Source: Candidatus Hodarchaeota archaeon (GTDB taxonomy: Archaea; Asgardarchaeota; Heimdallarchaeia; Hodarchaeales; YT1-039). Taken from it: DNA of 15,534 nt. Below are positions 592 through 15,534 of the stretch, one piece after another (position 1 is the first letter of the stretch; each line of letters opens with the position of its first letter). The position numbers and the translations under genes were made by a program. The stretch spans positions 1 through 15,534 of the forward strand of contig JAEOTF010000230.1 of NCBI GenBank assembly GCA_016840025.1, read 5' to 3'. The notes beneath the pieces were generated by a model. It ran no database searches, was not told the DNA's origin, and was given only the letters and a program-made list of their open reading frames with translations.

Positions 592-750
592 CACTGGGGC
601 ACTCCGAGTATTCTAACGAAGAAATTAGGATCATAAAGGCTATTTCGGCAATAAAAAATAACGAAAATTTAATCTTTCTTCGGCCACTTTCAAAAAAAAA
701 TAGAAATACTAACCATTAATTTTGTATATAGATTTATGGAGGACATATTA
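592..750. promoter_or_regulatory. Divergent intergenic region with two promoters
   Basis: This 159-bp AT-rich gap separates two divergent genes and must hold both promoters. On the plus strand, TATA-like stretches occur at 664-671 (AATTTAAT) and 724-730 (GTATATA). The first would give a leader of about 50 nt that includes the GGAGG at 738-742. The second lies too close for a leader that retains that ribosome-binding site. No palindrome or riboswitch-like structure was seen. Confidence 0.4.
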
Positions 751-1812
751 ATGATTGCTGCAATCGTCATGGCTGGAGGATACGGGGAAAGATTTTGGCC
801 TCGTTCTAGAAAATCAAGCCCCAAGCAAACTATACCAATAGTTAGTGACAAACCTCTCATCCAAGAGACTGTTGAGAGATTTGAACCTTTAATAGACAAA
901 AAAAATGTCTTTATTATTACTGGAACACATTTACATGAAAGTATGTGCAAAATTGTTCCAGAAGTAAATTTTATCTTAGAACCGATGAGAAGAGATTCAG
1001 CAGCAGCTATAGGATTAGCAGCTATTACTATTGAGAGAAAAAATCCCAATGCTACATTAATTGTAGTCGGAGCGGATTATTACATTAAAGATAAAGTAGA
1101 ATTTCAAAGACATCTCCACTTTGCTGCTGAATTGGCTCAAAAAGAAGAAAAAATCATAACGATTGGGATTGAACCCACACGACCAGCAACGGGGTTTGGC
1201 TACATTCATATGGGAAAGGAAATTGCCCAGAGTGACGGAATAACGGCTTATAAAGTACAAAAATTTGTGGAGAAACCAAAATTAAATACAGCTAAAGAGT
1301 ATTTAGAATCGGGAGAATATAAATGGAACTCAGGAATGTTTGTATTTCGAGTTTCTGTAATTTTAAAAGCTTTTAAAGTATATATGCCCCAGCTTTACAC
1401 AGCACTTGAAGCAATTAAGTCAGCAAACTTTGATAAACAGGTTATATATGATAATTTTGAGAAACTTCAGCGGATTAGCATTGACTACGGGATTATGGAA
1501 AAAACCCAAGATATTATAATGGTACGGGGGGATTTTCACTGGGATGATGTCGGTAATTGGGCTTCACTAGAAAGGTTTGCTCTTTCCGACCAATATGGCA
1601 ATGTTATTCGCGACAATGGGAAATTAATTGCCATAGATACAGAGAATTGCGTGTTTGACATTTCAGGGCATACTGTAGCCACAATTGGAGTGCATAACAT
1701 GATAGTAGTGACAACCGAAGATGTCATCATGATTTGTCCAAAAGATAGGGCCCAAGATGTCAAAAAACTTGCTGCTCTTGTTCAAAGCCAACATTCATAT
1801 TTGTTTGAGTGA
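751..1812 (+). CDS. manC: Mannose-1-phosphate guanylyltransferase (GDP-mannose pyrophosphorylase)
   Basis: The enzyme makes GDP-mannose from mannose-1-phosphate and GTP, the mannosyl donor for glycans and glycosylation. With the ATG at 751 the product is 353 residues, typical of the single-domain form without a fused phosphomannose isomerase domain. The ATG at 736 is unlikely because GGAGG (738-742) lies inside that extension, 8 nt before 751. Visible motifs are the nucleotide-binding signature MAGGYGERFWPRSR (residues 7-20) with K25 in SPKQ, LEP followed by RRDSAAAIGLAA (76-91), GADYYI in place of the usual PADH motif (107-112), TGFGYI (147-152), FVEKP (172-176), WNSGMFVFR (192-200) and DFHWDDVGNW (261-270). 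All are hallmarks of the family. No sugar-nucleotide genes sit next to it, so its use in N-glycosylation or surface glycans is inferred. It appears to be transcribed alone. Confidence 0.93.
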   Translation: MIAAIVMAGGYGERFWPRSRKSSPKQTIPIVSDKPLIQETVERFEPLIDKKNVFIITGTHLHESMCKIVPEVNFILEPMRRDSAAAIGLAAITIERKNPNATLIVVGADYYIKDKVEFQRHLHFAAELAQKEEKIITIGIEPTRPATGFGYIHMGKEIAQSDGITAYKVQKFVEKPKLNTAKEYLESGEYKWNSGMFVFRVSVILKAFKVYMPQLYTALEAIKSANFDKQVIYDNFEKLQRISIDYGIMEKTQDIIMVRGDFHWDDVGNWASLERFALSDQYGNVIRDNGKLIAIDTENCVFDISGHTVATIGVHNMIVVTTEDVIMICPKDRAQDVKKLAALVQSQHSYLFE

Positions 1813-1936: not shown

Positions 1937-2728
1937 GTGAATGAAGAAAGTTCCAAAGAATTTCGACTTACAATCTCGCAGGGCACTATGCTTGTTCGCG
2001 AAATCCTTACTAAAGAAGGAATTGTTCCTCATTTTCTTATCACGAAAGTATCTCTTCCAGAACCAGTCTTGAAAGAGATCAATGCTCTTTCCGAGATTGA
2101 ACAAACAGAACCAGAGGAGATAAAGAAGGTCCTTTGGAATCTTGCAATCGATTATGGCGAACAAACGTATGAGGGCTTGGAGGATAACAACACAAAAAAA
2201 GCAGTAATGATATCTGTTTGGCAGGGAAGTCTAGGATTCCAAACATTAAGCTTTAGTAGTATGATAAATGACCCCAACGCTTCTGTCGAACGACTGTGTA
2301 CAGTCTACCATGAGAGACATTTCGCAAATCTCCCTTCTTTTGACTGCTTTCAACATTCGGTCAAGATGGATACACGGTTACGGGAATTGGGTAGGAAATA
2401 TCATCATCCACCCATTGAAGCTGTTTATGAACCTCTTACCGATTTATTTGATGATCTACTCCAAGCCCTCATCCGTGAACTGGAAAAATCGGAGCAACCA
2501 CCTAAATTCTTATTACGTGATCTCATGGGGGTATTAGTTCATCAACCTGGTATGATCGAACGAAATTTTCGTCTCCGTAAAGAAGTGGACAAAATTCCAC
2601 TCAGGGCTAAAAAACGTATTCTCACACTGGGGGATCTAAAAAAACAGCATCGGTTTGTCGCAGCCTTAATGGTAGAATTGCTTATGGAAAATGAGATATT
2701 TAGAGATATTATAAAGACTAGACTTTAA
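1937..2728 (+). CDS. Hypothetical protein, first gene of a two-gene unit
   Basis: I do not recognise this 263-residue protein. Start is the GTG at 1937, supported by AAGGAG (1922-1927) 9 nt upstream. An AT-rich TATA-like stretch (ATATACTATATTT, about 1903-1915) lies in the 124-bp gap after manC. The protein is soluble, with no membrane segment. The N-terminal third is mixed. The middle (about residues 85-125) contains Trp, Ser and Phe-rich strands followed by a cluster CTVYHERHF, and the C-terminal half is charged and mostly helical, ending in a basic helical stretch (KKRILTLGDLKKQHRF, then MVELLMENEIFRDI). No known catalytic signature is evident. The next gene starts 12 nt after the stop, so the two are probably co-transcribed. 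They may act together, but no function is proposed. Confidence 0.8.
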   Translation: MNEESSKEFRLTISQGTMLVREILTKEGIVPHFLITKVSLPEPVLKEINALSEIEQTEPEEIKKVLWNLAIDYGEQTYEGLEDNNTKKAVMISVWQGSLGFQTLSFSSMINDPNASVERLCTVYHERHFANLPSFDCFQHSVKMDTRLRELGRKYHHPPIEAVYEPLTDLFDDLLQALIRELEKSEQPPKFLLRDLMGVLVHQPGMIERNFRLRKEVDKIPLRAKKRILTLGDLKKQHRFVAALMVELLMENEIFRDIIKTRL

Positions 2729-2740
2729 TGAAAGTGGATA

Positions 2741-3580
2741 ATGATGCGATTTCTAAAATCATTTGATAAATTAATCACAGATGAGGAGAGGTTAGCACTT
2801 ATTTTTGAAGCATTTAGCGAAAAATATCTTTATTGGGGAGTAGATTTATTCATTAAGGATGCAGTTGATCAGATACAGGTCCAGCATTTGAATTTTGTCA
2901 ATCATAATGACGTCAAAGTACTTGTGAAACGTGAGATCGAACGTCATCATATAGTACCTGCCCGAAATTGGCTTATCGGAAAATGTAACCAAATAAAAGA
3001 CTTTGAGCTCCGACAAAACGAATTTCTAGAAGAACCCGTCGACTGGAATTCAAGATATGCCGGTCTTCTTTACGAACTTGAAATGAGTCCAGAACCCCCT
3101 TTACTTTCATTAGAAGAGACTCTAATCAGTTTAAATGCAATTGGTCTTCAAAAAATAATAATTGCGGAAGAAGGTGAAAGTATTTCTGTTGAAAGCGTAA
3201 TTGATAGACCCCTTGTTCAAGCAGAATGGGCAGATATGAGTCAATTTGGTCAACAACTTTATGAAATCGAGTTTCTCCGACAAAATATCGAACGAATTGT
3301 CGCTAAAATTATTGAAAAGCCCTGTTTTGCCTTACCTACTGAGATAGAATGGAGTAATGGCGAAAGACTCGCTTTCTGGAATCCAAAGGATTTTCAAGAA
3401 GGTAAAAGGGTCGGAGTTGTACTTCTGATCTATTTTGGTCTAGGAGACCAAAGGTTAAAAGGACTCCTCGGATATCTTAATGAACTGGCAGCTCGCGTGA
3501 CTAAAGACGAGAAGCAAAGTCTTCTAACTTTGGTTGAGGAATTTAAACTCATTCAGAATCCGATAGAGAGGACACGTTAG
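2741..3580 (+). CDS. Hypothetical protein, second gene of a two-gene unit
   Basis: I do not recognise this 279-residue protein. Start is the ATG at 2741 or the adjacent ATG at 2744. Ribosome-binding support is weak (GTGGA about 5-8 nt upstream), and an out-of-frame ATG overlaps the upstream stop (TAATG, 2726-2730), so translation may be coupled. The product is acidic, soluble and helix-rich. A middle segment (about residues 133-155, IGLQKIIIAEEGESISVESVI) looks like alternating strands. A hydrophobic stretch VGVVLLIYFGLG (about 225-236) is too short and isolated to call a membrane helix. The 3' end overlaps the 3' end of the convergent LpdD-like gene by 32 bp (3549-3580), so the two transcripts would be antisense there. 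It is not an obvious paralogue of the preceding gene. Confidence 0.8.
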   Translation: MMRFLKSFDKLITDEERLALIFEAFSEKYLYWGVDLFIKDAVDQIQVQHLNFVNHNDVKVLVKREIERHHIVPARNWLIGKCNQIKDFELRQNEFLEEPVDWNSRYAGLLYELEMSPEPPLLSLEETLISLNAIGLQKIIIAEEGESISVESVIDRPLVQAEWADMSQFGQQLYEIEFLRQNIERIVAKIIEKPCFALPTEIEWSNGERLAFWNPKDFQEGKRVGVVLLIYFGLGDQRLKGLLGYLNELAARVTKDEKQSLLTLVEEFKLIQNPIERTR

Positions 3581-3926
3581 TATTAGAAAGCTTATTTACT
3601 AATAATTCACCTAGTTTTAAGCTATGTTCAAGCACCTGTGCTATTTCATCTCGTGAAAGAGAATCTTGATGAAAACCTGCAATAACAACAACAGGACAGT
3701 GAAGATAAGGAACAAGTTGGCGAGTAATTGCTGTAGAAATAGCATCATCACGATGAGAAAACCGAGTGAGGGTTGATACCGAGGCACTAGGTTTCTTATG
3801 TGACGTATAAGGCTCCCCTAGTGAAACTGCCCCAATATGTATGTCTCCTCCTCCAACTAAAATAACATAACCATCTCCGAATTCAAGGACTTTGGCTGTG
3901 AGCAAACCAAAGGTATAAGTTTTCAA
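3549..3926 (-). CDS. LpdD-like (prenylated-flavin chaperone/PAC-like) domain protein
   Basis: This small protein (125 residues from TTG, 128 from GTG) matches what I know of the LpdD-like family. The hallmark pieces are a GGGDIHIGAVSLG segment, a Ser-rich strand followed by LTRFSHRDDAI, and CPVVVIAGFHQDSLSRDEI followed by a C-terminal helix. In bacteria LpdD is tied to prenylated-FMN decarboxylases, while similar archaeal domains are often annotated as proteasome-chaperone-like. No decarboxylase gene is nearby. TTG at 3926 is preferred because GGTGAT, which pairs with the archaeal 16S tail, lies 4 nt upstream; the GTG at 3935 would overlap this site. The gene follows the GTPase gene with almost no gap and is surely co-transcribed. 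That pairing suggests a GTPase partner rather than an enzyme subunit (inference). Family call is firm, role is open. Confidence 0.75.
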   Translation of the reverse strand: MKTYTFGLLTAKVLEFGDGYVILVGGGDIHIGAVSLGEPYTSHKKPSASVSTLTRFSHRDDAISTAITRQLVPYLHCPVVVIAGFHQDSLSRDEIAQVLEHSLKLGELLVNKLSNTNVSSLSDSE

Positions 3927-3936
3927 TTTAATCACC

Positions 3937-4500
3937 CTAACGTGCTGTAAATAGCTTAGTTACTTCTTTTATGAGCCTTTCTGAAATATGAAGAAAAATC
4001 TCATCTACATGTTCGCCCGTAAGGGCAGAAGTTTGAATGGAACGACAGCAATTGAGGCTAAAGGCCTTTTTTTCGGCTTCTTGGGGAGTTACTGCCATCT
4101 TATCCTTCAAATCGACCTTATTACCAACAAGAATGGCGATTATATTCGTATCATCTTTAACGCCTCTTATCAGCGAGCTTTGCCATTTATCAAGGTTTTT
4201 GAGCGTATCTGGGCGAGTACAATCGAAAACATATATTACAGCGTTAGTTCCTACATAGAAAACTCTCTGGATTTCCCGAAATTTCCTTTGGCCCGCTAGA
4301 TCAAAGATAGACAAAGTACAATGGCTATTATTAACTTTCACCACTTTTGTCATGACATTTACGCCAATTGTGACCTTATAGTCGTGGCTAAATTTATTAT
4401 GGACAAATCGTTGAATAAGTGAAGTTTTTCCAACGGCAAAGTCGCCTAAAAGGACAGTCTTGAATATATAGGCATTCGTATGCTTCTCTGGCACATTCAC
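3937..4500 (-). CDS. Ras/Rab-like small GTPase
   Basis: This 187-residue protein carries all five G motifs: G1 GDFAVGKT (19-26), switch I threonine in KVTIG (T44), G3 DLAGQ (67-71) with the catalytic glutamine, G4 NKVD (127-130) and G5 TSAL (157-160). The switch I and WDxAGQ-type region (SIFDLAGQRKFR) places it with the Rab/Ras branch rather than Arf. There is no C-terminal cysteine motif (it ends KLFTAR), so classical prenylation is not expected. Start is GTG at 4500; a second in-frame GTG at 4494 has GGGTG 5 nt upstream and may be the true start, changing only two residues. The LpdD-like gene follows directly. Such eukaryote-like GTPases are abundant in Asgard archaea, and this is a main reason for the lineage suggestion. 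Guanine-nucleotide cycling is secure from motifs; the cellular process is unknown. Confidence 0.95.
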   Translation of the reverse strand: MNVPEKHTNAYIFKTVLLGDFAVGKTSLIQRFVHNKFSHDYKVTIGVNVMTKVVKVNNSHCTLSIFDLAGQRKFREIQRVFYVGTNAVIYVFDCTRPDTLKNLDKWQSSLIRGVKDDTNIIAILVGNKVDLKDKMAVTPQEAEKKAFSLNCCRSIQTSALTGEHVDEIFLHISERLIKEVTKLFTAR

Positions 4501-6416: not shown

Positions 6417-6503
6417 TCAAAACGAATCTAAGAAATTACAACAAAGTAAAACCCCTTAAAATTCGCAATCACGATTATCTTATAATTATTGGAGGCTCAA
6501 AAC

Positions 6504-7094
6504 CTGGAAATCATTGATTGGCTTCTTGACCAGAAAGCAGAATCAAAAATGGACTTTCTTGACCGAGCGGAACGGTATTTCTATCAATTATGGAGCGCCT
6601 ATAAAAAATCAGCCGCAGAAACCTTCCAAGAACTCGCGAATGACTATCAAAAGGGACGAAAACCGTCTCCAACCAAGAAAGGGGAGTGGAGACTCCGAAA
6701 ACAACAAGAAATGGCATTATTAGAGCTTGTTGATCTCTGCAGGAAAGCTAAGAATACCCTTCGACTAAAAATGCATGCTCAACGATTAGAGCCATTAGAC
6801 ACTAAAAAGCTCAAGAAATTGGTCAGACAAGCAAGCCGAGAAGAAAAACACTTTGATCGTTCTATGCGAGAAGCATTGATTCAAGGAAGAGCGGACCTCA
6901 TGACAACCAATGACATTGCTGTTGGGCTACTCTCGCTGTCCGAAGAGATCGAGGAGATGGTAGAACCAGTCGATGAACAGTTAAACAACTTGTTTCAACA
7001 AGAATTTCTGGTTTCCCTTGAAGATCTTTCCCCTGTCCTTGATTTTGAGAAAATAAAACGAAAAGTGACCGAGGTCGAAGGAAAGAGCAATTAG
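6504..7094 (+). CDS. Charged helical protein, first gene of coiled-coil operon (probable CTG start)
   Basis: I do not recognise this protein of about 196 residues. It is almost entirely helical and very rich in Lys, Arg and Glu, basic in its first half and acidic toward the end, without membrane segments or Cys pairs beyond one. Predicted helices run through RAERYFYQLWSAYKKSAAETF, a basic linker GRKPSPTKKGEW, and long amphipathic helices ending in LLSLSEEIEEMVEPVDEQLN. The start is unusual. A TTG at 6489 overlaps the GGAGG (6491-6495), whereas CTG at 6504 lies 8 nt after it and aligns with the ATG that follows the equivalent GGAG in the endonuclease leader. The first in-frame ATG is 6549. A basic-to-acidic helical bundle of this size recalls ESCRT-III proteins, but I see no diagnostic motif and do not make that call. 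Confidence 0.75.
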   Translation: MEIIDWLLDQKAESKMDFLDRAERYFYQLWSAYKKSAAETFQELANDYQKGRKPSPTKKGEWRLRKQQEMALLELVDLCRKAKNTLRLKMHAQRLEPLDTKKLKKLVRQASREEKHFDRSMREALIQGRADLMTTNDIAVGLLSLSEEIEEMVEPVDEQLNNLFQQEFLVSLEDLSPVLDFEKIKRKVTEVEGKSN

Positions 7095-7104
7095 GTGATC
7101 AAAA

Positions 7105-7740
7105 TTGAAAGTACTCGGTGAAAAAGAGTTAAAGAAAAGAAATGAGCGAGTTGATCGGTTTTTCACAAGTGGGAAGTTAAGAAGAGGCGACAAAAAATTC
7201 TTAGAGAAATTAAGCACGGAAATTCTTCCAGAGGAAATTGACGCCCATGAAGAAGCTCTTCAAATGTATGAATTGAAATTAAAACAGGTTATCAGGCAAG
7301 CAGAGGACTTTTTAGGAATAAAAATCGATGACCCACGGTTTTTAGGACTGCTGAAACAAAGAGAAACAGAGACTGGAGCACTTTACCAGCGTTTTATCCA
7401 TTTTGAACAAGCGATAGATGCAAGTAAGAAAACAATCGAATGGAAGACTGCTCAAAGTGATATGATTCAAGAAAGACTCAATCCACTAACACCTGGGCAG
7501 CCAGAAGGTTACCTTATCACAATGCAAAGAAGAGAGGAGTGGATTAAACAAGCCTCTTTAGCACTTTCCGCCTTAAAAGAATATGAACGAGAAATACAGG
7601 AAAAATATGGTCCAGCTGTATATGCAAGACTGAAAGATATGCAGACCCAACGTAATACACTTTCCGAGTCACAGAAAAAGATAATCACCGAAAAAGAAGA
7701 AGAAAAGGAGAAAACTGAGGAGAAGAAGACATTCGCATGA
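7105..7740 (+). CDS. Coiled-coil protein, second gene of operon
   Basis: This 211-residue protein is not recognised. The TTG start at 7105 is well supported: GGTGATC (7094-7100) is a seven-base complement of the archaeal 16S tail and lies 4 nt upstream, overlapping the previous stop. The protein is helical throughout, with a basic N-terminal segment (KELKKRNERVDRFF), a central helix pair interrupted by a Pro/Gly-rich turn (LNPLTPGQPEGY, about residues 126-137), and a C-terminal Lys/Glu tail (about 190-208) typical of coiled coil or disordered charged ends. The next gene overlaps it by 4 bp (ATGA), so translation is probably coupled. A structural or scaffold role is likely from composition only. 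Confidence 0.8.
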   Translation: MKVLGEKELKKRNERVDRFFTSGKLRRGDKKFLEKLSTEILPEEIDAHEEALQMYELKLKQVIRQAEDFLGIKIDDPRFLGLLKQRETETGALYQRFIHFEQAIDASKKTIEWKTAQSDMIQERLNPLTPGQPEGYLITMQRREEWIKQASLALSALKEYEREIQEKYGPAVYARLKDMQTQRNTLSESQKKIITEKEEEKEKTEEKKTFA

Positions 7741-8738
7741 ATAATCTGCTTGAAGACGCCAATTTATTACTCTCTAAGCTCAATGAACTTGAGCTATGGT
7801 ATAAAAGAATGATAGAAAAAACCAACTTCTATCAATATATGCCACGGAAACGAGCTGATCATGAAACTTCATATTGGCCAAGCCGAATTGATTTTGAACC
7901 CCGAATAATGATGGACTCACGTCTAATAACTATCACAGAGGCCTTTAAAACTGCGAAAAAGATTTTTCGGAGCTGTAAAAGAAATAAATTCAGGAAAGAT
8001 TCCCTAGAAGAGTTTTTTACTATCATGCGTAACATTTTTAGCGGAATTCAGATGAAAGAAGAATTGGAACAAAACATCAAAGTAATCAAACGACAAAAAC
8101 AACTAACAACTACTGAAAAAGCCCAAAGAATTCAAAATAAGGTCCGAGAGTATACTTTCAGTTATGCTCCCTATGAGAAAGGAACTATTCGGAGAGAAAT
8201 CAAAAGAACAATAGATCCAATAACACCTAAAGATACCATTCTCAAAGAAATTAAAAAAACAATTGACCCATCGAAACCGATAAAATCTAAAAAAGAAGAA
8301 GCAAAATATGTAGAATGGTATAAAAAGATAGAATATGAAATTGCTGTGCGGAAAGAAGAACTTAGAGCATTATTGGAAAGGACCTGTAATTTCATGGACT
8401 TTGTCCCCTCATATGAAGACACATCCATCCCTGTACCAGAAATGAGTTCCTTTTTGGTCACTCTTGCCCAACAGGATCTAACAGAACGCTACATCTACGC
8501 TCTTGAAGCAATAAAGGCTCAAATAGACCTCAAACGCCTTAGAACAATTAGGCTCGATGAAAAATTGTTTTACAGTACTCTTTTGGAGAATGAAAGACAG
8601 ATATATGTTGCTGAACAAAAATTAAAGCAAATTCAAGATGTAAAAGAGACCACTAGAATCAGAGAAACTTTAAAAGAAAATTTAGTGAAACTACGTAAAC
8701 AGGTTAAAGAGGGAGAGCGCATCCTCCTACAGGCGTGA
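7737..8738 (+). CDS. Coiled-coil protein with an internal 17-residue tandem repeat, third gene of operon
   Basis: This 333-residue protein is not recognised. It begins at the ATG of an ATGA overlap with the previous gene. Most of it is charged helix: an N-terminal helical pair (residues 1-35), a basic region around FRSCKRNKFRKDS (about 79-91), and a long C-terminal coiled coil (about 265-333). In the middle, residues 150-166 (TIRREIKRTIDPITPKD) and 167-183 (TILKEIKKTIDPSKPIK) are adjacent copies of one unit. There is no membrane segment or known enzyme motif. The operon seems to end here: the following 106 bp hold T-rich sequence and a new promoter. Partners within the operon are likely its binding partners, since all three are similar in composition. 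Confidence 0.8.
   Translation: MNNLLEDANLLLSKLNELELWYKRMIEKTNFYQYMPRKRADHETSYWPSRIDFEPRIMMDSRLITITEAFKTAKKIFRSCKRNKFRKDSLEEFFTIMRNIFSGIQMKEELEQNIKVIKRQKQLTTTEKAQRIQNKVREYTFSYAPYEKGTIRREIKRTIDPITPKDTILKEIKKTIDPSKPIKSKKEEAKYVEWYKKIEYEIAVRKEELRALLERTCNFMDFVPSYEDTSIPVPEMSSFLVTLAQQDLTERYIYALEAIKAQIDLKRLRTIRLDEKLFYSTLLENERQIYVAEQKLKQIQDVKETTRIRETLKENLVKLRKQVKEGERILLQA
8184..8285 (+). repeat. 51-bp tandem repeat inside a coiled-coil gene
   Basis: Two adjacent in-frame 51-nt units (8184-8234, 8235-8285) encode the 17-residue repeat with the core EIK(R/K)TIDP. DNA identity is partial, so the duplication is not very recent. Confidence 0.8.
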
Positions 8739-8770: not shown

Positions 8771-8801
8771 TTATAATATTCAATCCACTAACTGATTGAA
8801 T
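8771..8801. promoter_or_regulatory. Promoter with 8-bp inverted repeat
   Basis: TTATAATA (8771-8778) is a TATA-like box. Overlapping its end is the inverted repeat ATTCAATC/GATTGAAT (8778-8785 and 8794-8801, 8-nt spacer), which covers the expected transcription start near 8800. This is a good geometry for a repressor site controlling the single gene that follows. It differs from the palindromes of copies A and B. Confidence 0.55.
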
Positions 8802-8844
8802 GACATCCTTTCTTTTTGAAAAAGACTCTCTGAAGGGGAATTGG

Positions 8845-9561
8845 ATGGCTAAGACCAAGAAATTATCGTTGATTCAAGCAAAGAGAAGAATCCAAAAAAT
8901 AGAATCTAGGGCTCAGTACTTTTTTTTCACTACTCTAACTGGTTTAGAAAATATCACAAACCATTCAGCACCTGTCCTCTTCCAGAAGAAAAGAAGCCAC
9001 TATTATGGAATCCAAATCCTAACAACCAAATACCCAGTAGCTTTGAATCTAGTTTATAATGGAACAAATGGTTCAGGATTCTTAAAAAAGGCACAAAGCA
9101 TTATATATGCCATTGAGTTTTCGTGGGGCATTCCAGAAATTCGACCGTGGTTCATTACAAATTTTAATCTTCTAAAAGGGAACAGGTTTGCCCTTTCGCG
9201 GGTTCGTTCTACCTTCTGGGAGAAAGTCCAACGAAAGAATTTTATTCATCCAAGAGGGATTAAACAACTTCTGCAAGACCTAGATACGAATATTCACATC
9301 CATAACCACGCCTCTATTGTGATAAAAACAGTAGAACCTCTTAAACCGAATGGGATGACCTTTGTCTGCTCTCATAAGCCCAAGATAATCGAGGAAGATC
9401 GACCCAACCTCTCTCTCTCATTCGAGTTTATCGTAAAAAAACAGGAAAGAATAGGTCCAGAGATCAGTCCCGCTGTCTGGAATGAAACCGTTATAAGGAG
9501 TTGTGATTTGCTTCTTGCTGTAAGAGAACGCTGTGAAGCTTATAGAACATTATATTTCTAG
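8845..9561 (+). CDS. Hypothetical basic protein, single-gene unit
   Basis: I do not recognise this 238-residue protein. The ATG at 8845 is chosen because AAGGGG (8833-8838) lies 6 nt upstream; the in-frame ATG at 8800 falls inside an inverted repeat near the expected transcription start. The N-terminus is basic and helical (KTKKLSLIQAKRRIQKIESR). The rest is mixed alpha/beta, with aromatic-rich strands (YYGIQILTTKYPVALNLVYN, about residues 54-73), an Arg-rich segment (about 115-145) and HIHNHASIVIKT (about 152-163). The C-terminal strand LSLSFEFIVKKQ is followed by a helix with two Cys. There is no membrane helix. The histidine cluster might bind metal, but spacing gives no known motif. It converges on the type I membrane protein gene with only 4 bp between the stops. 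Confidence 0.75.
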   Translation: MAKTKKLSLIQAKRRIQKIESRAQYFFFTTLTGLENITNHSAPVLFQKKRSHYYGIQILTTKYPVALNLVYNGTNGSGFLKKAQSIIYAIEFSWGIPEIRPWFITNFNLLKGNRFALSRVRSTFWEKVQRKNFIHPRGIKQLLQDLDTNIHIHNHASIVIKTVEPLKPNGMTFVCSHKPKIIEEDRPNLSLSFEFIVKKQERIGPEISPAVWNETVIRSCDLLLAVRERCEAYRTLYF

Positions 9562-9565
9562 ATGT

Positions 9566-10276
9566 TCATTTTCTCTTGGTTTGATCCATGGCAGCCATTA
9601 ATGCTTGCAAAATTGCATGTTTATTTTGATCTTTGGGAATTGTCTCGGTTAAACCTAGTTTTTGATAGAGTTGTTCAATATCAATGGGCCCCTGACTTAT
9701 TCGTAGGTTGTAAAGGAGTTCTTGAGCTAATTGGTCATAATCTAAACTTAAACCTATGTCTGGAAGGAGTAATGATTTCTCCTTAACGAATCGAAAAATA
9801 ATAAGTCCCGCAACAAGAGCAATAATAACATTTACGAAGGCAAGGAGAGTAAAGGGGGTTTGAAACCATTCTTTTACTTGAAGGGAAAATATCTGATACT
9901 CAATGTGTTGTTGCTCAAGTGATTGGAGGGTTATATTGAATTCATAGACACCAGTTTTAACAAAATGGAGTTGGAAGTAAGCGGTATCACTACCTGCCAA
10001 TAGTGTGTTATTACCCTCAACCTCTTCTAGTCCTGTATTTTCGCCCTTTTCTAAAGTAAGAAAAGCAGAGAAATTATGGGTGAAGGCTACTGACGCATTT
10101 AATCTTATAGTAAGCTTAAAAGGGTCATTTATATACGCAAAATCGCTTTGAGGATCGATTTCAAAAGTTTTAGCTTGATAAATTTGGCTCTGGACTACTA
10201 CAGTGGAAGAACAACCAATAAGAATGCTGTAAATTAATAAAAGAAAACCGATAATGAAAGATGATGATGTTTTCAT
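9566..10276 (-). CDS. Type I membrane protein with lipobox-like N-terminus
   Basis: This 236-residue protein has a short N-terminus, a hydrophobic signal segment (residues 7-21) ending in LIGC (19-22), which fits a lipobox with C22 as the possible lipidated residue, or else an ordinary signal peptide. Residues 30-135 alternate as beta strands and contain four N-glycosylation sequons (N60, N68, N90, N114), consistent with an extracytoplasmic Ig-like or beta-sandwich domain. A membrane helix follows (about 141-163) with KEK on its inner side, then a cytoplasmic helical domain of about 70 residues (LAQELLYNLRISQGPIDIEQLYQKLGL). The ATG start lacks a clear ribosome-binding site, and a TTTTTATTT stretch about 35-40 bp upstream suggests a short leader. 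It diverges from the membrane protein at 10385, so the two could be linked in function. No family was recognised. Confidence 0.85.
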   Translation of the reverse strand: MKTSSSFIIGFLLLIYSILIGCSSTVVVQSQIYQAKTFEIDPQSDFAYINDPFKLTIRLNASVAFTHNFSAFLTLEKGENTGLEEVEGNNTLLAGSDTAYFQLHFVKTGVYEFNITLQSLEQQHIEYQIFSLQVKEWFQTPFTLLAFVNVIIALVAGLIIFRFVKEKSLLLPDIGLSLDYDQLAQELLYNLRISQGPIDIEQLYQKLGLTETIPKDQNKHAILQALMAAMDQTKRK

Positions 10277-10384: not shown

Positions 10385-11542
10385 GTGGTTGATTCCGAGC
10401 GATTCGTTTTCAAAGTAGCAGAAGGCCTTTGTTTACTCCTTGCTTTCATTGAACTGGCTTCACACCAAAGATTAGAGGAAGCGGGACAACAAGGCCAAAA
10501 TTTCAGTCTTCATCTCATTTTTAGTATAGCTTATATAGCCCTTGCATTCTTTATTCTATTAACCATCTCCGAAAAAGTAAGAGAAATCGTTGATTTAAAG
10601 GGAGTTGCTCAACCAACTCATAATACTCGAGTAGAAAATGCTATTAATCTATTAATCCGATCTACTAGCATTATAGCGATCTTTGTTGCTCTGATTGCTC
10701 TTTTTCACGAAACATTGCGAGGATTAGGGCTACAAAATGAAGAAATTGACTTATTGATAACAATTGGAGGAGTAAGTTTTGTTCTTACTCTTTTACTCAC
10801 ATTTATCATTATAATTTGGGAGTTAAAAAGTCCTGAAACTAGTACAGACCCACAATACCCAAATGGCATGTATATCCGACTAAAAACAACCCGATCTACT
10901 AGTTTACTCGTGTTACTTGCTATAGGAATCGTAAGAGCACTTGAGATACTTAACCCCTCTTCAAGGGAGAGTTTGTCAAGTGAAGTTCTTCTTGGACTTA
11001 CAGTTTTAGTTTGGATCAATATTCTCTCCTCATTCTTTCTTCTCTTTATTAGAAAACGCTGGAAGGCGCCTAAGAAAATGCAAATATCCACACAACTTAA
11101 TCTTCATTCTACCATTGCTTATATTTGTTTAATCATCGCACTCTTTAATTTCGGGTCTCTTATCTCTAATGGAGTGTGGTTGCATGGACTTACAGTGCTT
11201 TTTTGGATGTTTTTTCTAATTAATTTCATACAGTTCTTTTTTTTACTTCAAAATGCGGACAAAATAGGAAATTACATTGATCCTGAAGCCCTAAATTTTT
11301 CTCTCTGGCTGCAACTATTTGTAGCTATCCTAGTTTCTCAATTATTCTTTATTGATTTGAATCAAGTTTTTAGTTCACTAACTGATGTTTTTAGTAGCTA
11401 TCCGCGCATTATTGAAGTTCTGGAAAGTTGGGTTCAGGATCAACCAAATTCTGATTTCTTGTATGATTTTAGACTCACTATTTTTAGAGTTCTATTCCTA
11501 ATCTTCGCAGCTATTTCCCTATGGATAACGGAGGGACGTTAA
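10385..11542 (+). CDS. Ten-helix membrane protein built of helical-hairpin repeats
   Basis: This 385-residue protein has about ten hydrophobic helices (roughly residues 9-26, 42-63, 90-108, 122-145, 172-189, 201-222, 242-262, 266-288, 307-325, 362-381) grouped as five hairpins. Charged loops lie after the even helices (SEKVREIVDLK, WELKSPETSTDP, RKRWKAPKKM). Helices 3, 5 and 7 each begin with a similar tag (IRSTS at 91-95, TRSTS at 169-173, LHST at 240-243), suggesting an internal repeat. Start is GTG at 10385 with GAGG 7 nt upstream. No transporter or enzyme signature was recognised, and charged residues within the helices are few, which fits an anchor or scaffold rather than an ion carrier (inference). 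It is the first gene of a five-gene operon; the ParA-like gene follows after 21 nt. Confidence 0.85.
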   Translation: MVDSERFVFKVAEGLCLLLAFIELASHQRLEEAGQQGQNFSLHLIFSIAYIALAFFILLTISEKVREIVDLKGVAQPTHNTRVENAINLLIRSTSIIAIFVALIALFHETLRGLGLQNEEIDLLITIGGVSFVLTLLLTFIIIIWELKSPETSTDPQYPNGMYIRLKTTRSTSLLVLLAIGIVRALEILNPSSRESLSSEVLLGLTVLVWINILSSFFLLFIRKRWKAPKKMQISTQLNLHSTIAYICLIIALFNFGSLISNGVWLHGLTVLFWMFFLINFIQFFFLLQNADKIGNYIDPEALNFSLWLQLFVAILVSQLFFIDLNQVFSSLTDVFSSYPRIIEVLESWVQDQPNSDFLYDFRLTIFRVLFLIFAAISLWITEGR

Positions 11543-11563
11543 CAGTTCTAAGGAGATGATCAA

Positions 11564-12685
11564 TTGCTACCTCTCAGACGAACACTCATTCAAATTATAT
11601 CATCAAATCGCTCAGCTTCAGGAAAGACTCCTATCGCATTAGGACTTATAGTAAATCATTTAGTACGTAATGAAACGAATTATGTTACCGCTATCGACCT
11701 AAACAGTGCCAATCCTGACTTTGCCTCTATTCTCTTAGGTACAAAAGATGCAGGATACTGTTCAGAAGGCCGTCATAAACCTCAACTTGTTCTAAATTCC
11801 ATCCAGAAGAAAGAAAAATTGCCTGGAGAGTTAGAATACTATTTTCAGCCATGTTTTTCCAATCTCTCTGTTGTTTATAGGCGAAAAGTATTCGCTCCCT
11901 TAACTTCTAATCAAATCTGGCATACAATTACTGAAGTTTTACAGAAACAAAGAGAATTCCTTGCCTCAGAAGATCAGCAAGTTAATCAACGTCGAATTGT
12001 TGTCGATACAGGACTAAACCTACCCTCTACATTAGCAGGATTTGATAAAGAAACGATACATGCTTTGGATGCAGAAGTGGAGTTTTTTCATGTTTGGAAT
12101 TTAGTATCAGCTCTTGAATGTCCAGTTTTTGGGAGAGAAGGCACATATAATAAATACTGTGAACTAATCGCACCATTGTTCGACGAGTTAGATACAATTT
12201 CAAGATTGGCTACAGCAAAAAACGTTGCTCCGAACGTGATCCACATATTCACACCAAGGGCTGTACCAGTGCGAAAAGATTTTCTACAAGCAACTAAAAA
12301 GAAAGAAGATTTGATAAGCCATCAAGTACATACGGGATTACGAAAACGTAAATATAATCCTAATCTTTATCTGACTTTCACGAAACTTTCAAATCTACTA
12401 AAGAAAATATGTAATAATATTATTGAGGCGCAAGGCGCTGAAAAATGGAACCAGAGAGATTTTCAAGCGGAGTTTATAAATCAAGTACTTGACTACCTCC
12501 TACAATTTCCTGTTCTGCCTCGAAATGTGTTTGTAATTCCTTTGTTATTTACAAATGTGTTACGGGCATCTGATACATTACAACATCGGACAAATCTCAC
12601 CCAAAAGGAAATAGCTGTAGCATTAAAGGGCTTAATGCCTCGCATTAATGACTTTGAGAATACTCGAAGGACAGTGTTTCAATGA
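11564..12685 (+). CDS. ParA/MinD-like P-loop protein, degenerate paralogue
   Basis: This 373-residue protein starts at TTG 11564, 8 nt after AGGAG (11551-11555). Its P-loop is SSNRSASGKT (13-22): the GKT is kept, but the signature lysine of the deviant Walker A (KGGxGKT) is absent and the loop is one residue longer than in its neighbour. AIDLNSANPD (43-52) supplies the ParA-type acidic strand, and RIVVDTGLNLPS (144-155) the Walker B-like strand. The whole chain aligns with the next gene: matching blocks include NLSVVYR, VEFFHVWNLVS, NVIHIFTPR (224-232) and NVFVIPLLF near the C-terminus. The two are therefore tandem paralogues. Residues after the nucleotide domain form a family-specific helical region that I do not recognise. 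Loss of the lysine suggests reduced or altered ATP hydrolysis, perhaps as a partner subunit (inference). Confidence 0.75.
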   Translation: MLPLRRTLIQIISSNRSASGKTPIALGLIVNHLVRNETNYVTAIDLNSANPDFASILLGTKDAGYCSEGRHKPQLVLNSIQKKEKLPGELEYYFQPCFSNLSVVYRRKVFAPLTSNQIWHTITEVLQKQREFLASEDQQVNQRRIVVDTGLNLPSTLAGFDKETIHALDAEVEFFHVWNLVSALECPVFGREGTYNKYCELIAPLFDELDTISRLATAKNVAPNVIHIFTPRAVPVRKDFLQATKKKEDLISHQVHTGLRKRKYNPNLYLTFTKLSNLLKKICNNIIEAQGAEKWNQRDFQAEFINQVLDYLLQFPVLPRNVFVIPLLFTNVLRASDTLQHRTNLTQKEIAVALKGLMPRINDFENTRRTVFQ

Positions 12686-13755
12686 GATTCAAAATTGTTG
12701 TATCGTCGAAAGGAAGTGCAGGAAAAACACCTTTAGCGCTTTCATTAACTCTAAATCATTTAATAATGGACCAACCAATCATAGCAGTCGATGTTAACTC
12801 AAACAATCCTGATTTGGCACGTATTCTTTCTTCTACCTCAATAAAAAATAAAAAGAGAAGTCTATGTGAAAAAAACGATCTATTTACTTGTATTGAGATA
12901 ACAGAGAATCTGCATCTTATTTATCGCTCATCACCCTTCGACCCTTTAAGTATGGAAGAATTTTGGAGATTATTAGCAGAAATCAAAGAACATAGTGATA
13001 AAGCTCATTCAAGAGAGACTATTTGTATAGTAGATACTGTATTTAACCTCCCCTCTCTTGATCCTAGTACGGAATCTTCGCGAATTGCACTTCTAGACTT
13101 TGGTAAAGCTACTATTGAAATTTTTAATATCTGGAATGTCGTATCGGTCCAAGTTCGTTCCCAATTTCAACAACGATTTGAAGAAGTTGATGAGATTAAG
13201 GTTATTGGTGACACTTTAAGAAACCTTGACCGTATTGGTGAGTCTGATTCCTCTGTAATTCATGTTTTTACACCAAGACCATACGTACGGGCCACAGATA
13301 CTACTAAAATAGGTAAATTGCTTGATGGAAGACTTGTAAGAGATACAGGTAAACTACTTCCTATTGGTATTGAGGAATTTCAAGCTTTTAAAGAAAAAAA
13401 ATTGGATTTTGGACTTACATTGCCTTTTGAAGGAAAGATGAAAAGTCTGCAAGCTATTGTTGAAAGCATCGATATTTCTGATATTGGACAAAAGACAGAA
13501 TTCAGTTTTGAAAAGCTAGAAAATGAGGTTTTTAGAGATATTTTCAGGGTTATCAACTCGTGGGAATATCAACGTCCTTGGAACGTAATTGTGATCCCCG
13601 AATTAGTCCCTGAAGTTTTTAATATCGCTGAAACTCTCAGCTTTACTAATGAACTTACCTTTGAGCGGATTGAACGAATGTTAAGTCGATTCTATCAAGA
13701 GGTAGCCGATTGGATAAAGGAATATGAAGATAAGCGTCAAGATTTGAAAATGTAA
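12682..13755 (+). CDS. ParA/MinD-like ATPase with deviant Walker A
   Basis: This 357-residue protein overlaps the preceding gene by ATGA, implying coupled translation and probably matched amounts. The P-loop SSKGSAGKTPLAL (8-20) fits the deviant Walker A of ParA/MinD ATPases, with signature K10 and K15/T16. AVDVNSNNPDLARIL (35-49) carries the acidic strand (D37), and CIVDTVFNLPS (115-125) the Walker B strand (D118). ParA/MinD enzymes dimerise on ATP and use DNA, membrane or protein surfaces to position cargo. No C-terminal amphipathic membrane-targeting helix of MinD type is obvious; the C-terminus is a charged helix (QEVADWIKEYEDKRQD). The chain is longer than usual ParA (about 260), with an extra C-terminal portion shared with its paralogue. 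Position between a multi-pass membrane protein and a Vps4-like ATPase hints at membrane-associated work. Confidence 0.8.
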   Translation: MRFKIVVSSKGSAGKTPLALSLTLNHLIMDQPIIAVDVNSNNPDLARILSSTSIKNKKRSLCEKNDLFTCIEITENLHLIYRSSPFDPLSMEEFWRLLAEIKEHSDKAHSRETICIVDTVFNLPSLDPSTESSRIALLDFGKATIEIFNIWNVVSVQVRSQFQQRFEEVDEIKVIGDTLRNLDRIGESDSSVIHVFTPRPYVRATDTTKIGKLLDGRLVRDTGKLLPIGIEEFQAFKEKKLDFGLTLPFEGKMKSLQAIVESIDISDIGQKTEFSFEKLENEVFRDIFRVINSWEYQRPWNVIVIPELVPEVFNIAETLSFTNELTFERIERMLSRFYQEVADWIKEYEDKRQDLKM

Positions 13756-13774
13756 AAGATGAGAGCGAAATCAG

Positions 13775-14986
13775 ATGGATTATGTGAAGCAATTCAGGGA
13801 ACTCCATCAGGCCATCGAATTAGCCGTAGATGCCCGAAAATGGCACCTTGCGGATATCAATATTGGAAAAGCCATTCAGCTACTTGTACAATACCAAAGT
13901 CTTTCCGCGGGATCATCTAAACTGGTAGCATTTTGTAATCTTAAATTAAAAGAACTGAGGAGTCTTAGAGAAGAAGTACGAAAAAAACTTGCAGAACAAG
14001 AGCAAGCCCCTCATCAAATTCATCCACAAAAAACTCCAAAGAAGGAAGAAAGTACGAATGACCAGAAAGAGAAGCCTATCACAAAAGATTTTCCAAGAGA
14101 TTGTAGGGAAATAATCGATAAACTTAATGGGAAATACAACTACTCGAAACTTGCAGGATTAGATCAAATAATGCAAAGAATGAGAGAGGCAATTGAGTTA
14201 CCTCTTTACTACGCTGAAGAAATGGAAGAATTAGAATTAGAAATCCCACGTGGAATTCTGATGTTTGGTCCACCAGGTTGTGGAAAAACATTTTTTGTTA
14301 GGTGTACAGCTGGAGAATTTAATCTTCCTCTGGTGATTTGTAACCCTGCCGCAGTTATGCATAAATTTGTAGGAGAAACACCGAAAGCAATTCAAAAAAT
14401 CTTTCAATGTGCATCGAAGGTAGGAAAAACACAACCCAGTCTTATTTTTGTGGATGAAATCGAAAAACTGATACCTAAAACAGAATATGCAATGTCAAGT
14501 TCAAATGTGGCTAACGAAGCCTTGAATATGTTCCTTCAGTACATGGATGGCGTAAAGCCTGAATCCGGGTTTATTGTAATTAGTGCGACCAATCACCCCG
14601 AACTCATGGAACCAGCCCTTATCAATCGGCACCAGGAGAAGATTTTCTTTCCTCCACCAGATAAAGAAACACGAAAAGCAATTCTACAATTAAATCTCCC
14701 AAAAAAGTACATCTCTTCTGAAGTTGATTATGATAAGTTAGCAATTTACACAGAAGAAAAAAATGGATGGTTCTACGCAGGACGAGATCTAGCCCAAGCC
14801 TGTAATAAAGCAAAATGGCAGTTGTTTAATGAATGGCGTAAAAAGAAAGATAAAACCATAAAATTAGATATGAAATTCCTAGAATTAGCTCTTGAAAAAG
14901 TAAAGCGGTCTGTCAGCCCCGCTCTTCTCAAAAATTACAAGAATTGGGCAGATCAATATGCCTCTGAAATAGCTTACAGCGAGTAA
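13775..14986 (+). CDS. Vps4/katanin-type AAA ATPase with MIT-like N-terminal domain
   Basis: This 403-residue protein has the layout of Vps4. Residues 1-75 look like a three-helix MIT-like domain (FRELHQAIELAVDARKWH, then DINIGKAIQLLVQYQSL, then LKLKELRSLREEVRKKL), followed by a polar linker (76-108) and one AAA module. The module has Walker A GPPGCGKT (165-172), pore loop HKFVG (196-200, Phe where Vps4 has Trp), Walker B LIFVDEIE (223-230), sensor 1 in SATN (N273) and arginine finger R285. In Vps4 the finger region reads RRF; here it is NRHQ, so the second arginine is lost. GADI near sensor 2 is GRDL here (336-339). The end RSVSPALLKNYKNWADQY (378-395) matches the Vps4 C-terminal helix. It likely forms hexamers that thread or disassemble a polymer. 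Its neighbours are ParA-like genes and not ESCRT-III. Confidence 0.92.
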   Translation: MDYVKQFRELHQAIELAVDARKWHLADINIGKAIQLLVQYQSLSAGSSKLVAFCNLKLKELRSLREEVRKKLAEQEQAPHQIHPQKTPKKEESTNDQKEKPITKDFPRDCREIIDKLNGKYNYSKLAGLDQIMQRMREAIELPLYYAEEMEELELEIPRGILMFGPPGCGKTFFVRCTAGEFNLPLVICNPAAVMHKFVGETPKAIQKIFQCASKVGKTQPSLIFVDEIEKLIPKTEYAMSSSNVANEALNMFLQYMDGVKPESGFIVISATNHPELMEPALINRHQEKIFFPPPDKETRKAILQLNLPKKYISSEVDYDKLAIYTEEKNGWFYAGRDLAQACNKAKWQLFNEWRKKKDKTIKLDMKFLELALEKVKRSVSPALLKNYKNWADQYASEIAYSE

Positions 14987-15017
14987 ATTTAATATTAAGA
15001 AAAAAGGATCAATATCT

Positions 15018-15534
15018 ATGACTCAACCGGTACCAAAAACTCTAGACAGAGAGATTAAGGAATTAATAAAAGCACATATGGACAAATGGAGTATTTTTAT
15101 TGAAAAATGGAGAACCGCTGTAATCCATAGTGCTCCAGAAGAAGCTTCAGTAGTTGTTCTATTATTTTCCGAATTAAGATCAAAGATCTTGACTATCACA
15201 GAAAACCTAAGCGAGGAAGATTACCTACCTAGACCAAAGAAACCTGGAGAAATGATCGGAAGAATGCAAGAATTAACAAGTTTTCAACGTACTAGCGTTA
15301 TATCCGCTGAATCATTCAATATACCCACACTTGAGATAGAATTTCCTACCCCAAGTTTTCAACAAGAATTAAGTGCGCCCAGTGATGAAGAAATAATGAA
15401 AGACATAGCCAAAATTCCGTTATTTCCCAAACAAGTGGAAGAAATTCCTACTCCTCGTCTAGAAGAACCCCCAATTAAATCACAAGAACCAAGTGCGCCC
15501 ATTGATGAAGAAATAGTGAAAGAAATTGCCAAAA
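15018..15534 (+). CDS. Helical protein with acidic repeats, 3' end beyond window
   Basis: This frame shows 172 residues and runs off the right edge. The ATG at 15018 follows AGGA (15005-15008) by 9 nt and lies 31 nt after the AAA ATPase stop. Residues 1-65 form a helical, amphipathic region (LDREIKELIKAHMDKWSIFIEKW and a second helix). From about 95 the chain is Pro, Glu and Ser-rich and probably disordered. Within it residues 116-133 (QELSAPSDEEIMKDIAKI) and 156-172 (QEPSAPIDEEIVKEIAK) are copies exactly 40 residues apart, separated by a proline-rich spacer. The hydrophobic positions of DEEIMKDIAKI fall at +3, +7 and +10 from the acidic residue, as in type 1 MIT-interacting motifs, although the usual arginine is replaced by an acid. 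Binding to the neighbouring ATPase is therefore plausible but unproven. Confidence 0.75.
   Translation, partial: MTQPVPKTLDREIKELIKAHMDKWSIFIEKWRTAVIHSAPEEASVVVLLFSELRSKILTITENLSEEDYLPRPKKPGEMIGRMQELTSFQRTSVISAESFNIPTLEIEFPTPSFQQELSAPSDEEIMKDIAKIPLFPKQVEEIPTPRLEEPPIKSQEPSAPIDEEIVKEIAK
15363..15534 (+). repeat. 120-bp-period in-frame repeat (second copy cut by window end)
   Basis: The 52-nt stretch starting at 15363 recurs at 15483 with about six substitutions; the spacer between copies is not repeated within the window. More copies may lie downstream. Encoded motif core is SAP-x-DEEI-x-K(D/E)IAK. Confidence 0.85.

Follow-up and report, generated by a model that had tools for sequence, protein, structure and literature searches.

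Contig JAEOTF010000230.1 of a Candidatus Hodarchaeota archaeon (assembly GCA_016840025.1) carries, within the 15,534 nucleotides (nt) analysed here and called the window, a gene cluster that we propose encodes a non-canonical ESCRT-like membrane-remodelling system. A first-pass annotation made from the sequence had described five genes on one strand, encoding a ten-helix membrane protein, a pair of ParA/MinD-type P-loop proteins (A and B), a Vps4-like AAA ATPase and a repeat protein, with gaps of 21, −4, 19 and 31 nt, and the coordinates of the open reading frames (ORFs) from 10385 on agree with it. A 19-residue Kyte-Doolittle scan likewise finds ten hydrophobic segments in the first protein, and the repeat of the last consists of one ~31-residue unit in two copies at the window-truncated end of the protein. 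The cluster begins upstream of these five genes and takes in ORF 6489-7094, which the annotation had omitted and which ends 3.3 kb ahead of the membrane protein gene (Table 1). Since the P-loop proteins, the AAA ATPase and the product of ORF 6489-7094 all have relatives, they are not chance ORFs.

Table 1. Genes of the cluster and their positions in the window (aa, amino acids; TM, transmembrane)
Feature	Position	Strand	Remarks
ESCRT-III-like helical protein	6489-7094	+	201 aa; assigned by a two-step profile chain
Helical protein	7105-7740	+	211 aa; in cluster by position only, 10 nt after ESCRT-III-like gene
Helical protein	7737-8738	+	333 aa; in cluster by position only, 4-nt overlap with preceding gene
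Uncharacterised protein	8800-9561	+	253 aa; in cluster by position only, 61 nt after preceding gene
Signal-like N-terminal helix, extracellular part, one TM helix, cytosolic tail	9566-10276	-	236 aa
Membrane protein, ~10 TM helices (TM protein)	10385-11542	+	385 aa, GTG start; gene of cluster
MinD/ParA-like P-loop protein A	11564-12685	+	373 aa, TTG start; Walker A NRSASGKT, with Arg in place of the signature Lys
MinD/ParA-like P-loop protein B	12682-13755	+	357 aa; Walker A SKGSAGKT
Vps4-like AAA ATPase, divergent Asgard clade	13775-14986	+	403 aa; PF00004, 4e-29
Start of protein with duplicated ~31-residue unit	15018-15534	+	172 aa, ORF open at window end

The ATPase has a clear AAA domain (PF00004, expectation value (E) 4e-29), and its sequence holds the Walker A and B motifs GPPGCGKT and FVDEIEK. 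Eight proteins lie closest to it in the protein database at E ≤ 2e-70, the next following at 3.9e-53 (among the best 120 of 434 matches), and the five of these eight that carry names are all Asgard. We also searched 227 genomes of the Asgard phylum, none of them close to the host, since the mannose-1-phosphate guanylyltransferase gene of the window (736-1812) shares at most 42% identity with any of them. Twenty-two match the window ATPase at E ≤ 1e-45, ten of these with a single-AAA frame of 383-414 aa at E ≤ 4.4e-54. A scan of the genome contigs with the window ATPase as a single protein found no relative, and an alignment scan with two generic motifs gave 80 loci, mostly of unrelated AAA proteins, seven of which were then searched for MIT genes.

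In a tree of 41 rows the window ATPase, the ten genome loci and the eight database proteins form one clade of 19 rows (support 100/99), separate from canonical Asgard Vps4 (10 rows, 100/99), from seven CdvC-like rows of TACK archaea and from Cdc48. Inside the clade the window protein groups with P0003-P0010 and with loci L113 and L114 (98/95); the latter two are its closest kin among the genome loci and have no ESCRT-III-like gene upstream. An approximately unbiased (AU) test rejects placement of the window ATPase inside canonical Asgard Vps4 (p 1.2e-5) and inside Vps4 plus CdvC (p 5.2e-4), with groups defined only once the tree was seen and with a long terminal branch for the window protein (1.46). 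The corresponding value for Cdc48 (p 8.5e-4) is confounded by canV_L210, which falls among the Cdc48 rows and was therefore excluded from the canonical group. The Vps4-like character claimed at first pass is thus upheld by the domain match, the relatives and the tree, and the phylogeny suggested there sets the window protein apart from Vps4 and CdvC, the two references of that suggestion represented in the tree. The concern raised alongside it, that this might be the organism's only canonical Vps4, is contradicted, as far as it can be tested, by the first of the AU values and by the separate canonical ESCRT-III/Vps4 locus of genome G058. Judged from its sequence, then, the window ATPase is Vps4-like yet outside canonical Vps4, CdvC and Cdc48.

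The N-terminal domains of this AAA family resemble canonical MIT domains, with a profile probability (P) of 98.7 for 18 sequences and of 95.7 for the eight from loci other than L113 and L114, in a test whose decoy pool still contained AAA genes, so that the family member L113_1548 ranked as a 'decoy'. Pfam matches to MIT occur in the relatives P0003 (9e-11), P0010 (3e-9) and L119 (5e-5). The Vps4 C-terminal helix (PF09336) reaches 15.7 bits in the window ATPase (E 0.015), below the cut-off of 21.3, and exceeds that cut-off in P0005, P0006, L115 and L122 among the nine relatives scanned.

We compared the regions round the ten relative AAA genes gene by gene. In seven of the ten loci (L115-L121) the AAA gene is directly preceded, on the same strand, by one or two members of a helical family of ~185-211 aa, here called E3, and in L122 a 215-aa gene in that position matches E3 weakly (P 57); the seven loci are not independent, because L117/L120 and L119/L121 are close pairs. 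When a profile of 22 E3 sequences is used as query, the canonical ESCRT-III profile (15 sequences) takes rank 1 of 237 with a score of 53.4 (P 93.5), in a collinear alignment of ~180 residues (8-188 to 54-235); the best unrelated decoy scores 22.2 and the reversed canonical profile 25.7. In the reverse query with the canonical profile E3 is again first (51.7 versus 24.5 for the best decoy). The canonical profile was drawn from 15 of 21 Snf7 loci, those passing a length filter, and a reversed E3 profile scores 43.4 against E3, a warning of coiled-coil self-similarity. Snf7 is not among the Pfam families listed for ten E3 members (best 25 of 66 families), and canonical Snf7 genes are present elsewhere in 10 of the 12 genomes searched. 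A sequence search of the PDB with the E3 alignment gave coiled-coil matches, mostly to viral fusion proteins and designed bundles, and was uninformative. Nine of the 227 genomes match the E3 profile, eight of them strongly; these eight, which had themselves contributed rows to the profile, each carry the divergent AAA ATPase (in genome G058 as a 241-aa fragment). From these profile comparisons we conclude that the E3 family is ESCRT-III-like. A weak E3 match (G081:C84:705-1229, L281, 2.8e-6) lies in a genome without an AAA match at E ≤ 1e-45.

ORF 6489-7094 has the orthologs P0137 (88%) and P0138 (66%), and when the genomes are searched with this one sequence, gene 2664-3329 of locus L145 in G058 (E 8.4e-8) is the sole relative at E ≤ 1e-3. 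A profile of the ORF with three relatives ranks E3 first of 237 (score 41.4, P 83, residues 47-193 to 42-193; best decoy 24.9), and a C-terminal IKRK stretch is common to the ORF and to L116, L117 and L120. The product of ORF 6489-7094 is ESCRT-III-like, then, through a chain of two profile steps, from the ORF to E3 and from E3 to canonical ESCRT-III, and the initial statement that the usual ESCRT neighbours are not recognisable here no longer holds.

P-loop proteins A and B are paralogous (phmmer E 5e-20 and 1e-20). A search of the protein database with B alone gave no protein other than B; the alignment of the family (22 rows) has FleN and MinD as its best PDB matches, with E from 4.8e-6, and family models find CbiA in 18 and AAA_31 in 17 of the 22 members (E ≤ 0.1), which supports the description of a ParA/MinD-type pair. 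Family members are 330-441 aa long and have a long C-terminal part without a PDB match. A scan with the family matches 92 of the 227 genomes at E ≤ 1e-8, mostly over the first 60-140 positions only, and matches 30 strongly (E ≤ 1.4e-25), 18 of which had contributed rows to the search profile. Of 36 P-loop family genes, 23 are directly preceded by a multi-helix membrane gene (at least four hydrophobic segments, same strand, gap of at most 35 nt), versus 6 of 463 other genes at the same loci; because the genomes share ancestry and the P-loop genes determined the choice of loci, it is this ratio that matters and not a p-value. The remaining 13 comprise three genes without an upstream gene on the contig, three preceded by an A paralog or a piece of one, and seven without a membrane gene.

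The signature lysine of Walker A is present in 18 of the 21 family rows covering that position, and the upstream paralog of the tandem (A) has arginine instead in all three cases (window, L144 and L147). All 22 rows have Asn39, 24 residues past the Walker lysine, giving DxN instead of DxD; the same spacing in MinD and Soj leads to the catalytic aspartate of DxD, and in the HMMER alignment of the family to FleN a two-residue gap near Asn39 leaves the exact register unsure. Because of Asn39 and the Lys-to-Arg change in A, the A/B pair may be a heterodimer with slowed hydrolysis.

At L155, L157, L158, L162, L163 and L250-L256 a two-gene unit consists of a membrane protein (~310-333 aa, five to six segments) and a MinD-like ATPase. 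The two genes of this compact unit often overlap, and no AAA or ESCRT-like genes occur among the two nearest genes on each side. Genome G172 has a weaker MinD-like relative preceded by TM genes (L258 3523-4773, 3.2e-15) and carries divergent AAA and ESCRT-III-like genes on a contig other than L258.

Genome G058 holds counterparts of several cluster genes on separate contigs. On the short contig L145 the ESCRT-III-like gene is followed by three others and, at the contig end, by the start of a TM gene; L144 has the end of a TM gene, A, B and then a signal/TM protein (3274-4112); L207 is the 241-aa piece of the divergent AAA ATPase, lying where a third contig ends; and L208 is a separate, canonical ESCRT-III/Vps4 locus. 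In G057 one contig ends with the TM gene and the start of A; a second carries the remainder of A and then B, which is followed by a gene that by eye resembles a CAAX protease. We infer the adjacency of these split contigs from the cut genes at their ends. The order TM protein, A, B thus recurs in G057 and G058 across contig breaks, and the exact order of five genes was found only in the window among the genomes searched. The first-pass annotation had held that a gene order confined to one genome would refute it: this applies to the full set of five, and not to the TM-A-B order or to the AAA ATPase with an ESCRT-III-like gene, found together in seven of the ten other loci. The proteins 7105-7740, 7737-8738 and 8800-9561 and the signal/TM protein have no sequence support as counterparts of the similarly placed G058 genes (best profile probabilities 0-4, z at most 2.1 against composition shuffles); the last of them and L144 3274-4112 have a like layout and no sequence similarity. 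Comparison of the window TM protein with the G058 TM pieces gave z values of 3.7 and 2.4, which are suggestive only.

Taken together, we put at about one half the probability that the window encodes a non-canonical, ESCRT-like system of membrane remodelling, second to the ordinary one, whose MinD-like switch pair is attached to the membrane. The membrane-attached machine imagined at first pass survives in so far as the P-loop family is linked to membrane genes (23/36) and a Vps4-like ATPase and a MinD-like pair are present; conservation of the five-gene order, which it would also have implied, was not found. Several results weigh against an ESCRT-like system: ORF 6489-7094 does not match canonical ESCRT-III significantly in one profile step, and the N-terminal 85 residues of the window ATPase are not recognised as MIT (canonical MIT at rank 20 of 206). 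Nor did a Pfam scan of the ORF product match Snf7 (E ≤ 1). Of our claims, the one that ties the MinD-like pair to the ESCRT-like part holds the most interest and has the least support.

Somewhat unlikely, in our estimate, is that two unrelated modules, a TM plus MinD-like unit and a divergent AAA ATPase with its own partners, have become adjacent by chance, with no cooperation between the P-loop pair and the ESCRT-III-like gene. Outside the window the genomes with each module mostly differ (30 of 227 with strong P-loop matches, 10 of 227 with the single-AAA family), they overlap only through G058 and, with the weak P-loop match noted above, G172, and the exact gene order is confined to the window; against this, P-loop gene B and the AAA gene lie on the same strand 19 nt apart, and G058, the sole genome in which searching with ORF 6489-7094 by itself gave a relative (E ≤ 1e-3), also has the tandem A/B and a fragment of the divergent AAA ATPase.

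It is unlikely that the helical proteins, instead of being related to ESCRT-III, are coiled-coil adaptors such as BAR-like membrane scaffolds, and that the AAA ATPase unfolds some other substrate. The core of the ESCRT-III fold is a long alpha1-alpha2 hairpin. In an AlphaFold2 (AF2) model the product of ORF 6489-7094 contains a helical hairpin (residues 17-54 and 61-99) with a predicted local distance difference test (pLDDT) score of ~73-92 per block; BAR domains lead the rows of the structure comparison, and no ESCRT-III chain is among the best 50, a result that by the tool's own note excludes nothing. This reading is opposed by the first rank of canonical ESCRT-III in the E3 comparison, with a collinear alignment scoring well over unrelated decoys, and by the position of the E3 genes, which in seven of ten loci immediately precede the gene of an MIT-bearing AAA family.

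Very improbable, finally, is a role in defence against phages as a relative of IetAS (AAA ATPase plus subtilisin-like protease): the window ATPase matches PADLOC IetA (2.4e-31) and subtilase (Peptidase_S8) genes occur in four relative clusters (L115 13220-14893; L119 12329-14062, Pfam 4.2e-50; L121 11939-13687; L122 997-2712), but on IetA the canonical Vps4 of L208, with 132.5 bits, outscores both the window ATPase (107.5) and the tested relatives (77-105), the relatives' subtilases match IetS below generic subtilase (28.6-51.5 bits against an NCBIfam cut-off of 900) and the window has no subtilase, so that identity with IetAS was rejected on scores that are those of any AAA protein or subtilase.

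If the window does encode a second ESCRT-like system, the ESCRT-III-like protein, perhaps with its helical neighbours, would polymerise on the cell membrane, at its inner face. Through its N-terminal region the AAA ATPase would bind this protein and extract subunits. The TM protein would anchor the MinD-like A/B switch, probably an ATP-sandwich heterodimer in which hydrolysis is slowed, and this switch would set the membrane site of filament formation or of ATPase loading. A bolder version, which we consider rather unlikely, is that there is a second Asgard ESCRT lineage with a separate AAA family and its own highly divergent ESCRT-III-like filaments, and that in the lineage of the window it has been wired to a membrane-anchored MinD-type A/B heterodimer with natural D-to-N catalytic sites, a spatial switch placing or licensing the filaments. 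If true, that lineage would unite in a single machine the two principal means by which prokaryotes organise membranes.

Other genes of the window and of the relative loci may be noted briefly. A hydrophobicity scan of the minus-strand signal/TM protein finds segments at residues 7-25 and 142-160, and an Ig-like fold for it is only a guess. Protein 8800-9561 has no Pfam family at E ≤ 1, the protein with the duplicated unit no family in Pfam or NCBIfam, and protein 7737-8738 no match in any of the 227 genomes; an internal duplication of the latter was rejected, its halves scoring 51 and shuffles up to 60. The only match of the TM protein among the 227 genomes is spurious (40 residues with an internal stop). 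On the minus strand at 3549-4500 lies a Ras-family small GTPase (7.6e-44), followed on the same strand by a gene like a proteasome assembly chaperone (PAC_bac, 2.8e-24). Round the AAA relatives, a related gene pair of 264-326 aa is divergent from the ESCRT-III-like pair (L118 6056-7922, L119 6449-8145, L121 6127-7803); both members in L119 have a G-x4-GKT P-loop, and the family is distinct from the window P-loop pair. L117 (3464-8233) and L120 (1804-6628) contain an extended cluster with, by eye, zinc-ribbon/FG-GAP-like, SPFH-like and winged-helix-like-repeat proteins. A family that by eye is TPR-like lies directly downstream of the divergent AAA gene in L116 (508-1686), L117 (8242-9399) and L120 (6625-7791), and three genes on in L115 (11774-12835).

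In agreement with the first-pass annotation, which knew of no system with this gene set, we found no description of it among the listed results of literature searches on Asgard ESCRT/Vps4, MinD/ParA and subtilisin. Makarova et al. 2024 (PMC10936438) describe archaeal ESCRT variants, among them three diverged Hodarchaeota Vps4 paralogs that are not associated with other ESCRT genes; the terms subtilisin, subtilase, protease and MinD do not occur in the text searched. The AAA group of the window, including L113/L114 and P0009, which is labelled Hodarchaeota, presumably corresponds to those three paralogs, judged by their description.

The origin of eukaryotic membrane trafficking has been argued largely from Asgard ESCRT genes recognised by their resemblance to Vps4 and Snf7. 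If a parallel AAA/ESCRT-III-like lineage is so divergent that those models miss it, membrane remodelling in Asgard archaea is under-counted, and the lineage would offer a paralogous system open to test. Should a MinD-like membrane switch be physically linked to ESCRT-like filaments, this would be new to the literature searched and would bear on how Asgard cells pick sites of membrane bending or cutting.

The proposed system can be set against four known ones. With archaeal ESCRT-III/Vps4 systems it shares an MIT-bearing AAA family directly after ESCRT-III-like genes and helical partners, and differs in an AAA ATPase outside canonical Vps4 and CdvC, in ESCRT-III proteins too divergent for Snf7, in the TM protein and MinD-like pair added in the window and in the subtilase added in relatives. 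L113 and L114, close to the window ATPase, resemble the Hodarchaeota paralogs in lacking ESCRT neighbours; unlike those paralogs, as characterised in PMC10936438, the wider clade of 19 rows has ESCRT-III-like neighbours in other Asgard archaea (7 of 10 loci), and the window has one at a distance. With IetAS the window shares an AAA ATPase, and some relative clusters also share a subtilase; the window differs in having no subtilase, and its AAA score, like those of the relatives' subtilases, is at a generic level. With MinD, FleN and ParA, SIMIBI P-loop ATPases, the P-loop family has in common the signature lysine of Walker A, which B retains, and FleN and MinD as best structures; unlike them it has DxN for DxD, a multi-TM partner gene and an A/B tandem with a Lys-to-Arg change in A.

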